Shown here: in pieces, positions 33,815-36,633 of the stretch | Position numbering within the stretch: the stretch's first letter is position 1 | Layout: every line of letters starts with the position of its first letter | Source of the DNA: Actinomyces bovis | GTDB lineage: Bacteria > Actinomycetota > Actinomycetes > Actinomycetales > Actinomycetaceae | DNA length: 64,000 nt | Direction: 5' to 3' | NCBI RefSeq assembly: GCF_900444995.1 | Contig: NZ_UAPQ01000001.1 | Location: forward strand, 372,001 to 436,000 | Program-made: the position numbers and the translations under genes | Notes under the pieces: model-generated | Databases searched by the model: none | Told to the model about the DNA's origin: nothing | The model's input: only the letters and a program-made list of their open reading frames with translations

Positions 33815-34486
33815 ATGCCAGAAGCCCTCCTCACGCTAGCCCGCGGCGAGCAGCCCGAGATTGACTTGGAGATAAAACGCTCGCATTTCCTGGGCCGCGC
33901 CGCGCGCACCAGCGCTGAGGCCGAGGCCCGCGCTTTCATCGCCTCCGTGCGCGCCAAGTACCCCGATGCCCGCCACCACTGCTCCGCCTTCGTGGTCAAC
34001 GGCGCGGACGGCGCCCGGCCAATCGAGCGCTCAAGTGACGACGGTGAGCCCTCCGGCACGGCAGGCACCCCCATGCTGGAGGTACTGCGTGGGTCCGGAC
34101 TGAGTGAAGTGACCGTGGTGGTCACCCGCTATTTCGGCGGCACGCTGCTAGGCACTGGCGGTCTAGCGCGGGCATACTCCCAGGCCACTGCCCAGGCGCT
34201 GTCTGCCGCCAGCCGCGTGCAGTTGGAGACCCGGCATTTGTGGGAGGTGGTTGTTCCCGTGGCGCAAGCAGGAAGGCTTGAGGCTGATCTCCGCGCCCAT
34301 TCAGCAATGCCGCAACTGGCGGGTTTGACTGTGGAGGAAACCTTATGGGGACCCACCGAAGCCCTTGTCACTGTGACCACGGCAGAACCCGAGCCAGCCG
34401 AGCTGCATGCACTCCTGGCAGAACTAAGCCAAGGGCAGCTCAGTGCCCGAGCGACTGGCAGCCGGGTGGTGGAAGCGCCCGTCTGA
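33815..34486 (+). CDS. YigZ/IMPACT (UPF0029) family protein
   Basis: The N-terminal domain carries the UPF0029 signature: IERSSDDGEPSGTAGTPML, then VVVTRYFGGTLLGTGGL and RAYSQA. A smaller C-terminal domain of unknown function follows (223 residues in all). IMPACT relatives in eukaryotes regulate Gcn2; the bacterial function is not established. The start is the ATG at 33815; no clear ribosome site is seen. It is divergent from rpmF. Confidence 0.9.
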   Translation: MPEALLTLARGEQPEIDLEIKRSHFLGRAARTSAEAEARAFIASVRAKYPDARHHCSAFVVNGADGARPIERSSDDGEPSGTAGTPMLEVLRGSGLSEVTVVVTRYFGGTLLGTGGLARAYSQATAQALSAASRVQLETRHLWEVVVPVAQAGRLEADLRAHSAMPQLAGLTVEETLWGPTEALVTVTTAEPEPAELHALLAELSQGQLSARATGSRVVEAPV

Positions 34487-34526
34487 GCCCGCCCAGACTC
34501 AGTCACCACACAAAAGTGTCCCAAAC

Positions 34527-34628
34527 TGCAGCACTTTGCATCCCTGCGCTCAGCAAACTCGCAGGCCATTGACGCAGTTCCAAGGATTTCTCGCAGGGCT
34601 CTGCAGGAGCAGCATCCAAAGTGCTGCA
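34527..34628. repeat. Perfect 12-bp inverted repeat in the region between yigZ-type gene and the cys promoter
   Basis: TGCAGCACTTTG at 34527-34538 and CAAAGTGCTGCA at 34617-34628 are exact reverse complements separated by 78 nt. They flank a gene-free stretch and lie just upstream of the cysK promoter. This may be a distant terminator arm or an operator pair. Confidence 0.5.
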
Positions 34629-34672
34629 TTTCGTGCCACTCCACTCCCACAGCGAACGCAACTAAGCCTGGC

Positions 34673-34701
34673 TTGACTGCACCACCGCCCGCTGGTTTAA
34701 C
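34673..34701 (+). promoter_or_regulatory. Promoter of the cys leader-cysK-cysE operon
   Basis: TTGACT (34673-34678) and TTTAAC (34696-34701) are exactly 17 bp apart, placing the transcription start near 34708, about 57 nt before the leader ORF. Confidence 0.6.
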
Positions 34702-34764
34702 GTTCAGCCAAGCGGGGCGACACAAGACGCGAAGCCCCCCCGCAAAGCACGAGAGGAGGACCCC

Positions 34765-34815
34765 ATGACCACCAAGGCCATGCGTGAGATGTCCTGCTCG
34801 TGCTGTACGTGTTGA
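34765..34815 (+). CDS. Cysteine-rich leader peptide upstream of cysK
   Basis: The ORF encodes MTTKAMREMSCSCCTC followed by TGA. Four of its last six codons are Cys (three TGC/TGT clusters in a row), and it has a strong ribosome site (GAGAGGAGGACCCC) and a consensus-like promoter 64 nt upstream. It stands 178 nt before cysK, followed by GC-rich hairpins. This is the design of an attenuation leader: ribosomes stalled at Cys codons when Cys-tRNA is scarce would change downstream RNA folding. Cys-rich upstream ORFs acting as cysteine-responsive attenuators have been described in mycobacteria. The function here is inferred; the ORF and its context are seen directly. Confidence 0.75.
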   Translation: MTTKAMREMSCSCCTC

Positions 34816-34948
34816 CGGGGCGCCAGGCCTCGAATCCGTGCGCTCTCACGCGCATGCCCGGCGCTCGGGCTAGCACGCAGCCCTAACCCACGTGCGCACC
34901 CCTCACCGCCGCCAGTTCTCGGCACCCATTTGTCGGTGTCTCAGAACT
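34816..34948 (+). promoter_or_regulatory. Putative attenuator hairpins between leader peptide and cysK
   Basis: After the leader stop come GCCCG-gcgct-CGGGC (34856-34870) and a longer stem-loop in which AGTTCTCGGCACC (34914-34926) pairs with GGTGTCTCAGAACT (34935-34948). GCGCTC occurs twice nearby and GGGCGCC lies right after the leader stop, giving room for alternative pairings. There is no U-tract, so control could be on translation or Rho rather than intrinsic termination. Confidence 0.45.
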
Positions 34949-34993
34949 CAGGCGCTCCAGACCAGCCACTCCAACGAAAACCCAGGAGACACC

Positions 34994-35923
34994 ATGACCG
35001 TTGCCAACAACATCACCGAACTCGTCGGCTCCACCCCAATTGTCCGCATCAACCGCGTTACCGACGGCGCCCCCGCCACCGTCCTAGCCAAAGTAGAGGC
35101 CTTCGAACCTGCGGGAAGCGTCAAGGACCGCATCGCCCTGTCCATCATCCGCGCCGCCGAGACTTCCGGCACCCTCCAGCCCGGCGGCACCATCATTGAG
35201 GCCACCAGCGGCAACACCGGCGTTGGCCTGGCCATGATTGGTGCGGCCCTGGGCTACCGCGTCATCATCACCATGCCGGAGACCATGTCCAAGGAGCGCC
35301 GCGCCATCATGCGGGCCTTCGGCGCCGAGCTAGTGCTCACCACCGAGGGGGGTGTGGCCGGGGCCGTAAAGAAGGCGGAGGAAATCCACGCGGTCACCCC
35401 CAACTCGGTGCTTGCCTCTCAGTTCGCCAACCCCGCCAACCCCGCCGCCCACCGCGCCACCACCGCTTTGGAGATCCTGGAGGCCACCGGGGGCAAGCTG
35501 GACGTCTTCGTGTCCGGCATTGGCACCGGCGGCACACTTACCGGCGTGGGCCAGGTGCTGCGGGAGAAGGTGCCTGGCATCAAGATCTTTGGCATTGAAC
35601 CCGCTGAGTCCCCGCTGCTGTCCACGGGCCAGGCCGCTCCGCACAAGATCCAGGGCTTGGGCCCCAATGTGGTCCCGGAGGTGCTGGACCAGCAGATCTG
35701 GGATGAACTGCTGCATATCGAGGGTGACCTCGCCATCGAATACGCCCGCCGCGCCGCGAAGGAGGAAGGCCTGTTGGTTGGCATCTCCTCTGGCGCGGCC
35801 CTGGCTGGAGCTTCCCAGCTGGCTAAGCGCCCCGAGTTCGCGGGCAAGACCATTGTGACGCTGCTGCCTGACACGGGCGAGCGGTACTTGTCCACGGCGC
35901 TCTTCGCCGAGTACCTGAACTGA
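34994..35923 (+). CDS. cysK: Cysteine synthase (O-acetylserine sulfhydrylase)
   Basis: CysK makes cysteine from O-acetylserine and sulfide with pyridoxal phosphate. The 309-residue protein has the PLP lysine in GSVKDRIALS (Lys44), TSGNTGVGLAM, and the phosphate-cup loop GIGTGGTLTG; PDTGERYLST is near the C-terminus. The ATG at 34994 has CCAGGAGAC upstream. The frame is open for another 34 codons upstream, but they fall in the leader region. It precedes cysE, the supplier of its substrate, and is probably under cysteine attenuation. Confidence 0.96.
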   Translation: MTVANNITELVGSTPIVRINRVTDGAPATVLAKVEAFEPAGSVKDRIALSIIRAAETSGTLQPGGTIIEATSGNTGVGLAMIGAALGYRVIITMPETMSKERRAIMRAFGAELVLTTEGGVAGAVKKAEEIHAVTPNSVLASQFANPANPAAHRATTALEILEATGGKLDVFVSGIGTGGTLTGVGQVLREKVPGIKIFGIEPAESPLLSTGQAAPHKIQGLGPNVVPEVLDQQIWDELLHIEGDLAIEYARRAAKEEGLLVGISSGAALAGASQLAKRPEFAGKTIVTLLPDTGERYLSTALFAEYLN

Positions 35924-35937
35924 GCTATAGCTCGCAA

Positions 35938-35979
35938 ACCGGCGGTGGCGTTCCCGGGAACAGGATCGTCACCGCCGGT
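35938..35979 (+). terminator. Hairpin between cysK and cysE
   Basis: ACCGGCGGTG and CACCGCCGGT form a 10-bp stem, with GTTCCCGGGAAC nested in the loop. It has no U-tract. It may cause partial termination or stabilise the cysK message. Confidence 0.5.
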
Positions 35980-36057: not shown

Positions 36058-36633
36058 ATGCACAATTCTGACCACTCCGTCCTCGATCTGATTCGTGAGG
36101 ACCTGGCCACTGCCCGACGCCGTGACCCTGCCGCCCGCTCTAACGCTGAGGTGGCGCTGCTTTATCCCGGCGTGCACGCCCTGTGGGCGCACCGGGCAGC
36201 GCACAAGTTGTGGCACAAGGGGCACCGGTTTGCGGCCCGGGCTCTGTCCCAGGCGGCGCGTAACTTCACCGGTGTGGAGATTCATCCGGCTGCGGTGATT
36301 GGGCGCCGCTGCTTCATTGACCATGGCATGGGCGTGGTGATTGGGGAGACCGCGGAAGTTGGCGACGACGTGCTGCTATTCCACGGCGTAACCCTGGGCG
36401 GCGTATCCATGAGTCCCGGCAAGCGCCACCCCACTATCGGCAACCGCGTGCAGATTGGGGCGGGTGCCAAGGTACTGGGCCCAGTCACTGTTGCCGACGG
36501 CGCCACGGTGGGAGCCAACGCAGTCCTGGTTAAGAACCTGCCGGCGGACCACGTGGGGGTGGGTGTGCCTGCGCGGGCCCGCAACCGCAACACGGACCCT
36601 GAACTCCTGCTAGACCCCACCGCCTACATCTAA
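36058..36633 (+). CDS. cysE: Serine O-acetyltransferase
   Basis: CysE acetylates serine with acetyl-CoA, the first and feedback-regulated step of cysteine synthesis. The 191-residue short form has left-handed beta-helix hexapeptide repeats with IDHGMGVVIGETAEVGDD (catalytic His/Asp region), the loop GKRHPTIGNRVQIGAGA and PVTVADGATVGANAV. It lacks the extra N-terminal domain of the E. coli enzyme. The ATG has AGGAGAAGCC directly upstream. It lies 134 nt after cysK and probably shares its promoter. Confidence 0.96.
   Translation: MHNSDHSVLDLIREDLATARRRDPAARSNAEVALLYPGVHALWAHRAAHKLWHKGHRFAARALSQAARNFTGVEIHPAAVIGRRCFIDHGMGVVIGETAEVGDDVLLFHGVTLGGVSMSPGKRHPTIGNRVQIGAGAKVLGPVTVADGATVGANAVLVKNLPADHVGVGVPARARNRNTDPELLLDPTAYI

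Follow-up and report, generated by a model that had tools for sequence, protein, structure and literature searches.

A cysteine-rich upstream ORF with a hairpin at its stop codon as a candidate attenuator of cysK in Actinomyces

Introduction

A short open reading frame that closes on a cluster of Cys codons stands ahead of the cysteine synthase gene cysK in Actinomyces bovis, and it raises the question of whether translation of this frame governs the expression of the genes that follow. A first-pass annotation of this DNA had read the frame as a leader peptide with a putative attenuator, and that reading is examined here in a window of 64,000 nt, i.e., the whole stretch of DNA that was analysed, and in sets of related genomes.

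The uORF and its genomic context

The upstream ORF (uORF) spans 34765..34815 on the + strand, with its ATG at 34765-34767 and a TGA stop at 34813-34815. It codes for MTTKAMREMSCSCCTC in 16 codons, of which codons 11, 13, 14 and 16 (34795-34797, 34801-34803, 34804-34806 and 34810-34812) specify Cys, so that the 16-codon Cys-rich ORF first proposed ahead of cysK is real. The strong ribosome site ascribed to it can also be read from the sequence as a Shine-Dalgarno (SD) site, AGGAGG, at 34754..34759 (+), 5 nt before the ATG, and many leaders of the genus carry AGGAGGAC at the uORF SD. In the predicted ribosome-free fold the region next to this site (34747-34753, GCACGAG and on) pairs with Cys codons at 34797-34803 (CTCGTGC), by which the uORF may limit its own initiation.

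The gene for cysteine synthase A, cysK (34994..35923 (+); TIGR01139, 413.2 bits, cut-off 350.95), starts 178 nt past the uORF stop and has its own SD, AGGAG, at 34984-34988 (+). The next gene is cysE, encoding serine O-acetyltransferase (36058..36633 (+); TIGR01172, 227.6 bits, cut-off 210.65), which is found on the same strand 3' of cysK in 36 of 48 loci of the genus, the other 12 stretches ending 111-263 nt past cysK; the proposed attenuator of cysK would probably act on cysE as well. The gene upstream of the leader appears to encode a YigZ/UPF0029 protein (PF01205 exceeds its cut-off; TIGR00257, at 144 bits, does not), and the nearest named records by CysK are those of Actinomyces, at 71-85% identity. 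An inverted repeat with arms CCGGCGGTG and CACCGCCGG was observed between cysK and cysE, at 35939-35978.

Conservation of the uORF among relatives

Comparisons drew on overlapping sets in which cysK was located in 28 of 29 relatives, 48 of 49 genomes of the genus and 195 of 200 genomes of the family, plus 80 named loci; from the matches in the 195 genomes, 40 family loci were hand-picked, about one or two per genus. A uORF was counted where an SD-preceded ORF of at most 45 codons, with at least three Cys codons among its last eight, lay within 500 nt upstream of cysK. Conservation of the Cys codons in related Actinomycetaceae had been set as a check on the original annotation, and this check was passed: such an ORF precedes cysK at 40 of the 48 genus loci and at 14 of the 40 other family loci. 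For named loci outside Actinomyces the count is 12 of 68, and for further loci of the order it is 1 of 11; as the loci are related, these counts are not independent trials. Controls for the genus gave 0, 0, 0, 1 and 0 in five shuffles, 1/48 on the antisense strand and 0/153 among control 500-mers. For the other three sets, shuffles and antisense strands gave 0, and control 500-mers gave 0/7 (family), 0/471 (named) and 0/33 (order).

Seven of the eight genus loci that were not counted still keep a uORF and hairpin. Six of them (L014, L017, L128, L130, L133 and L137) have only two Cys codons among the last eight, and at L046 the frame continues past a lost stop. The eighth, L002 (genome G013, CysK 88% identical), retains cysK and cysE but lacks both uORF and hairpin, which it has apparently lost. 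By eye, no uORF-hairpin unit was seen in 12 of the 40 sampled family loci (L147, L148, L151, L154-L156, L170, L173, L175, L178, L180 and L183); these loci, like G013, count against the attenuator reading. It was also observed that at L046, L159 and L171 the in-register uORF stop is gone and the frame extends several codons into the hairpin, and that at L181, again by eye, hairpin-like arms remain upstream of cysK behind a frame that has lost most of its Cys codons and its in-register stop.

Among 41 non-redundant leaders of the genus, with codons numbered from the stop position of the relatives, Cys is found at codon -2 in all 41, at codon -5 in 39 and at codon -4 in 34. Both TGC and TGT are used at codons -4 and -5, so it is the amino acid that is kept there. 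At codon -2 only TGT is used and TGC is absent, and next comes C in 38 of the 41 leaders, TGA in two and AGG in one, which suggests a constraint at the RNA level beyond the amino acid. Stop usage is similarly skewed, with TAG closing 69 of 74 uORFs but just 1 of the window's 41 long ORFs, the latter being mechanical ORFs and not curated genes; this preference fits the last base of the stop codon being tied up in the hairpin described below.

A covarying hairpin at the uORF stop codon

The GC-rich hairpin that the first-pass annotation placed between uORF and cysK is indeed present at 34818..34866 (+), as indicated by folding, covariation and covariance model R1 (E 4.4e-11). Its outer helix joins 34818-34824 with 34860-34866 and 34826-34828 with 34856-34858, and its inner helix joins 34838-34843 with 34850-34855 (all +). 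The segment 34816-34869 folds at -28.4 kcal/mol, with a z of -1.66, or of -2.7 with slightly different limits. Leaders aligned on the uORF stop share the arrangement TGT-CNN-TAG-RGCGCC-N-GGC ... GCC-N-GGCGCYC, in which the helix starts from the third stop base, and in 44 of the 48 genus loci the hairpin begins at that base. This tie between hairpin and stop, which the first-pass annotation had overlooked, is the strongest element of the case. The loci off this register are L002, which has no element, L046, whose stop is lost, and L001 and L003 of the window lineage, in which the stop is one codon further upstream (TGTTGACGGGGCGCC versus TGTCGATAGGGCGCC), leaving two bases between TGA and helix. 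The third stop base itself follows the pairing, as an in-register TGA or TAA is matched by a partner T (L161, L172 and L182).

For the covariation analysis, 74 non-redundant elements were selected on uORF score and on how well arms sought from the third stop base complemented each other, with L071, L116, L124 and L166 dropped and L001 and L003 placed by hand; alignment A1 is a subset of 37, picked for likeness of the inner helix. In A1, seven of the ten outer-helix pairs are changed on both sides and 97.8% of cells are paired, the inner helix being less regular at 78.1%, and both percentages are biased upward by the selection on arm complementarity and the dropping by hand. The structure as a whole has 34 double-change cells, where shuffles average 7.1 and slid partners give 4-9. 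Of five measures taken on the whole structure, four exceeded all 500 shuffles and the fifth was reached once, while all five exceeded the slid versions. In many Actinomyces leaders the invariant TGTC was seen by eye to pair with a GACA in the internal loop, a pairing that lies beyond the covariation test because TGTC hardly varies.

Rfam 15 at curated thresholds returned only two tRNAs in the window and none at the hairpin, and at permissive E-values just a chance-level miRNA match in the leader stretch; none of nine Rfam matches in eight relatives overlaps the element. Taken as sequence, an SD-led Cys uORF and a hairpin at, or within a few bases of, its stop are demonstrably conserved as one unit before cysK. 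The original attenuator reading is supported by the conserved Cys codons and by the covarying hairpin tied to the uORF stop, which provides it with a structural basis.

Distribution of the element

Model R1 finds the element in 47 of 49 Actinomyces genomes, with one strong copy each, and all 47 best matches are directly upstream of cysK on the same strand (coordinates compared by eye). Two further matches (E 0.004 and 0.008) are located elsewhere, and the two genomes lacking the element are G052, which is 89% complete and has no cysK above threshold, and G013, in which cysK is present. Outside the genus, the elements passing selection include 19 of the 40 family loci and 13 of 68 named records, the latter from Cellulomonas, Actinotalea, Georgenia, Demequina, Sanguibacter and Pengzhenrongella. 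Furthermore, a DNA pattern of stop plus arms that is blind to cysK matched 35 of 396 genomes of the order, i.e., 5 in the same family and 11 and 19 in two others, and the reversed pattern matched 0/396. All 30 pattern loci that were examined (5 from Actinomyces and 25 from the two other families) have a codirectional cysK 93-271 nt past the stop, and in 29 of them, the exception being L221, the Cys-containing frame has a start with an SD-like tetramer. Across 394 genomes of the class, R1, with 13 candidates scored per genome, returned only the window's own genome and one weak match (E 0.0048), and the strict pattern, which misses the own genome too, matched 0/394 (reversed control 2/394), so these class-wide nulls are not strong negatives.

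The inner half of the hairpin varies in sequence and length in the two other families, where the outer helix and Cys uORF remain. This bears on a riboswitch-like reading, according to which a protein or small molecule would recognise the hairpin and the Cys uORF would do no more than modulate how the hairpin folds. The TGT at codon -2 in 41 of 41 leaders would agree with such a role, as would TGTCNNTAG, which stands before the helix and is, in alignment A1, more constant than peptide coding needs; however, so variable an inner half does not look like a ligand pocket, and the reading is very unlikely. An absence of any regulation, with a chance Cys-rich ORF lying beside a GC-rich hairpin, could appeal to the high GC content of the genome, in which hairpins are common, and to a z of only -1.66 for the hairpin of the window. 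It is contradicted by the enrichment of the uORF, the conservation of its Cys codons, the covariation and the distribution of both R1 and the pattern, and can be considered extremely improbable.

Promoter and 5' leader

Upstream of the uORF are a -35 element, TTGACT, at 34673..34678 (+), in a register conserved in the relatives, and a -10 element, TAACGT, at 34698..34703 (+), with the N19 spacer of that register. Of the 41 non-redundant genus leaders, 26 have TTGAC in the 130 nt ahead of the uORF (shuffles: mean 2.0, maximum 8), and in all 26 a TANNNT is located 19 nt past the hexamer, which defines the register TTGACN-N19-TANNNT. The 17-bp spacer originally assigned to this promoter was therefore not borne out, N19 being the spacing common to the relatives. 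The -10 element of the window ends 61 nt before the uORF ATG; the transcript would start near 34710, leaving a 5' UTR of about 55 nt, and given the conserved promoter register upstream the uORF is probably not leaderless. A generic promoter scan of the window did not call the TTGACT/TAACGT pair, and a generic sigma-70 scan of the regions upstream of the uORFs reached at least nine matches in only 3 of 74 (shuffles about 1%). This low yield is attributable to the scan's spacer limit of 18 and strict hexamer rule, and the register count was used in its place.

Ribosome position and the proposed mechanism

The 74 leaders were folded with a blocked ribosome footprint that began 16 nt before the A-site codon and extended 12 nt from its first base. 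When the ribosome was placed at the Cys codons versus at the stop, as the first-pass annotation had asked, the mean probability of the outer helix was 0.83 at the first Cys codon, 0.28 at the last and 0.005 at the stop, where the 5' arm is blocked by construction, compared to 0.72 with no ribosome. With its A site on Cys codon -4 or -5, a modelled ribosome stops short of the 5' arm and the hairpin can form, whereas one at the stop, with a footprint reaching 9 nt past it, masks the 7-bp 5' arm of the window in full. In the model, this geometry of ribosome and arm is that of a trp-type 2:3 antiterminator. When the ribosome is at the stop, the freed 3' arm pairs with downstream sequence at a mean of 0.385 (individual leaders range from 0 to 0.93), and no single or common competing structure for it stood out in the 74 folded leaders. 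Since the hairpin also forms with no ribosome, equilibrium folding cannot separate a stalled from a departed ribosome, and the model consequently needs kinetic coupling.

Cysteine-responsive attenuation through the uORF and hairpin is highly probable, and the best explanation overall, a cysteine-responsive, ribosome-mediated attenuator of cysK (and probably also of cysE), is likely. The uORF would be translated by ribosomes which, under a shortage of Cys-tRNA, would stall on its Cys codons; the hairpin could then form and transcription of cysK would continue. With sufficient cysteine, the ribosome would move on to the stop and exclude the hairpin as its 3' arm emerges, which would leave the C-rich leader open to premature, most likely Rho-dependent, termination.

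Candidates for the repressing step

The remainder of the leader, 34867..34979 (+), is rich in C and poor in G (C 0.42, G 0.21, skew 0.34) and is a candidate Rho loading stretch. In 71 of 72 leaders the stretch from hairpin to cysK contains more C than G, with a mean skew of 0.27 against 0.04 upstream of the uORF, and 20 intergenic controls from the window, which rest on mechanical ORFs and not on curated genes, have a mean skew of 0.07 (sd 0.09, maximum 0.18), as against 0.34 for the leader. A gene for Rho is present in the genome (TIGR00767 at 604.1 bits, which exceeds the cut-off). Compared with its shuffles, the C-rich stretch shows no reduction in structure (mean z of -0.73 for 68 leaders, -1.7 in the window), which speaks against an ideal rut site. 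Rho-dependent termination is tentatively held to be the likeliest repressing step, because the leader is C-rich, Rho is present, predicted access to the cysK SD does not change with ribosome position and no terminator-like site was found on the + strand of the window leader.

Classical transcription attenuation would instead assign the stop-codon hairpin the part of a 2:3 antiterminator opposed by a 3:4 terminator with no canonical U-run. The trp-type geometry, in which only a ribosome at the stop covers the 5' arm, accords with this alternative, and so do some Actinomyces leaders (e.g., L006 and L012) in which a pyrimidine tract comes after a second hairpin. Yet a scan found no terminator-like site on the + strand of 34300-35300, runs of at least four T occur between hairpin and cysK in just 13 of 74 leaders, and a common partner for the 3' arm was not seen, all of which makes this alternative unlikely. 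For the leader of the window, an intrinsic terminator was rejected, there being none on the + strand. The window leader also has a second predicted hairpin, GTTCT...AGAAC, at 34915..34947 (+), with no T-run after it.

Translation attenuation, in which a ribosome stalled on the Cys codons frees an otherwise sequestered cysK ribosome-binding site, as is reported of the mycobacterial polycysteine sORFs, would suit a window in which the scan shows no terminator, and is cited for cysteine genes of M. smegmatis in the accessible part of that literature. It predicts that ribosome position alters access to the cysK SD and start, but the predicted mean access is 0.535 for the naked leader, 0.546 with the ribosome at the first Cys codon and 0.535 at the stop; going from stop to first Cys codon, gains of more than 0.1 are seen in 4 of 74 leaders and losses of more than 0.1 in another 4. 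Sequestration of the cysK SD was rejected on this predicted lack of effect in the 74 leaders, and translation attenuation as a whole is quite unlikely. Reinitiation from uORF to cysK was likewise rejected, as the hairpin ends 44-304 nt from the cysK start in the 74 leaders.

The hairpin might represent a new class of ribosome-gated RNA element, whose closing pair uses the last stop base, which antiterminates against Rho and not against an intrinsic terminator, and which is kept before cysK across several families of the order; this broader proposal is rather doubtful.

Relation to known systems

Like the trp, his and leu attenuators, the leader has a leader-peptide ORF in which codons for the regulated amino acid are clustered, ahead of a biosynthesis gene, and an RNA structure that depends on ribosome position, here in folding only; it differs in that the competing intrinsic terminator of stem and U-run was not found on the + strand of 34300-35300. 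The tnaC leader of E. coli combines a leader peptide with Rho-dependent termination and detects free Trp through arrest of the nascent peptide at the stop. A leader peptide and, as proposed, Rho are common to both systems, whereas for cysK the proposed signal is codon starvation upstream of the stop. In mycobacteria, Canestrari et al. are said to have described in 2020 polycysteine leaderless sORFs that attenuate cysteine metabolism genes through ribosome-dependent control. In these, the downstream ribosome-binding site is reportedly sequestered unless ribosomes stall. Cys codons in a short upstream ORF and a cysteine metabolism gene are shared with them, going by the accessible part of that work, and ribosome-dependent control is proposed here as well. 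By the same partial account, the mycobacterial sORFs are leaderless and cited as translation attenuation, whereas the present uORF has an SD and an inferred 5' UTR of about 55 nt. Moreover, sequestration of the cysK SD is not predicted here.

Seliverstov et al. (2005, PMC1262725) had already predicted Cys leader peptides upstream of cys operons in Mycobacterium and P. acnes, and upstream of cbs in B. longum. The available text of that study describes the Mycobacterium regions as lacking a conserved hairpin able to act as terminator and proposes pyrimidine motifs and Rho; Actinomyces naeslundii was among its genomes, and the same text reports no Cys leader for it (PMC1262725). As far as they are described there, those candidates resemble the present leader in having a short ORF with Cys codons near its stop, upstream of cysteine biosynthesis genes and with no intrinsic terminator, and differ from it in the covarying stop-codon hairpin that is conserved here (PMC1262725). 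The uORFC-8-2 motif before cysS in Rhodobacterales, in the part of its description that was available, has its Cys codons inside a stem and closes with a U-run that would fit an intrinsic terminator (PMC8632094). It shares with the Actinomyces leader a uORF with Cys codons (tandem ones in uORFC-8-2) and a conserved RNA structure, and differs in gene and in phylum (PMC8632094).

The first-pass annotation had claimed novelty both for the SD-led start and for the position before the cysteine synthesis operon itself. The former stands, but the latter does not, since Cys leaders before cys operons were already predicted in 2005, as the available text of that study states (PMC1262725). What is new is the SD-led start and above all the stop-codon hairpin, the kind of control being already known. 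A search of titles and abstract starts, which covered few subscription journals, found no description of the hairpin or of an Actinomyces cysK attenuator, and is weak evidence of absence. The hairpin gives actinobacterial cysteine leaders a defined, testable structure, where the 2005 study, in its available text, had a leader peptide with no partner structure. As hairpin and Cys codons can be mutated separately, the question of how terminator-less leaders work, by Rho, a hidden terminator or translation, becomes directly testable, and the uORF-hairpin unit marks cysK as the gene under such control across Actinomyces and relatives.

A second element in Actinomyces cysK leaders

A further element, GACGGNCGCGRACCGTC, with a 5-bp stem and a 7-base loop, was observed exactly once in each of 15 of the 49 Actinomyces genomes (loci L246-L255 and five further Actinomyces cysK leaders) and is absent from the window; the reversed pattern has 3 matches, in 3 of the 49 genomes. 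In all 15 it is on the sense strand between the stop-codon hairpin and cysK, about 100-240 nt before the latter. A looser expression matches 27 of the 74 leaders, some of these matches being other inverted repeats, and in some leaders (L006 and L012) the element is followed by a pyrimidine-rich tract.
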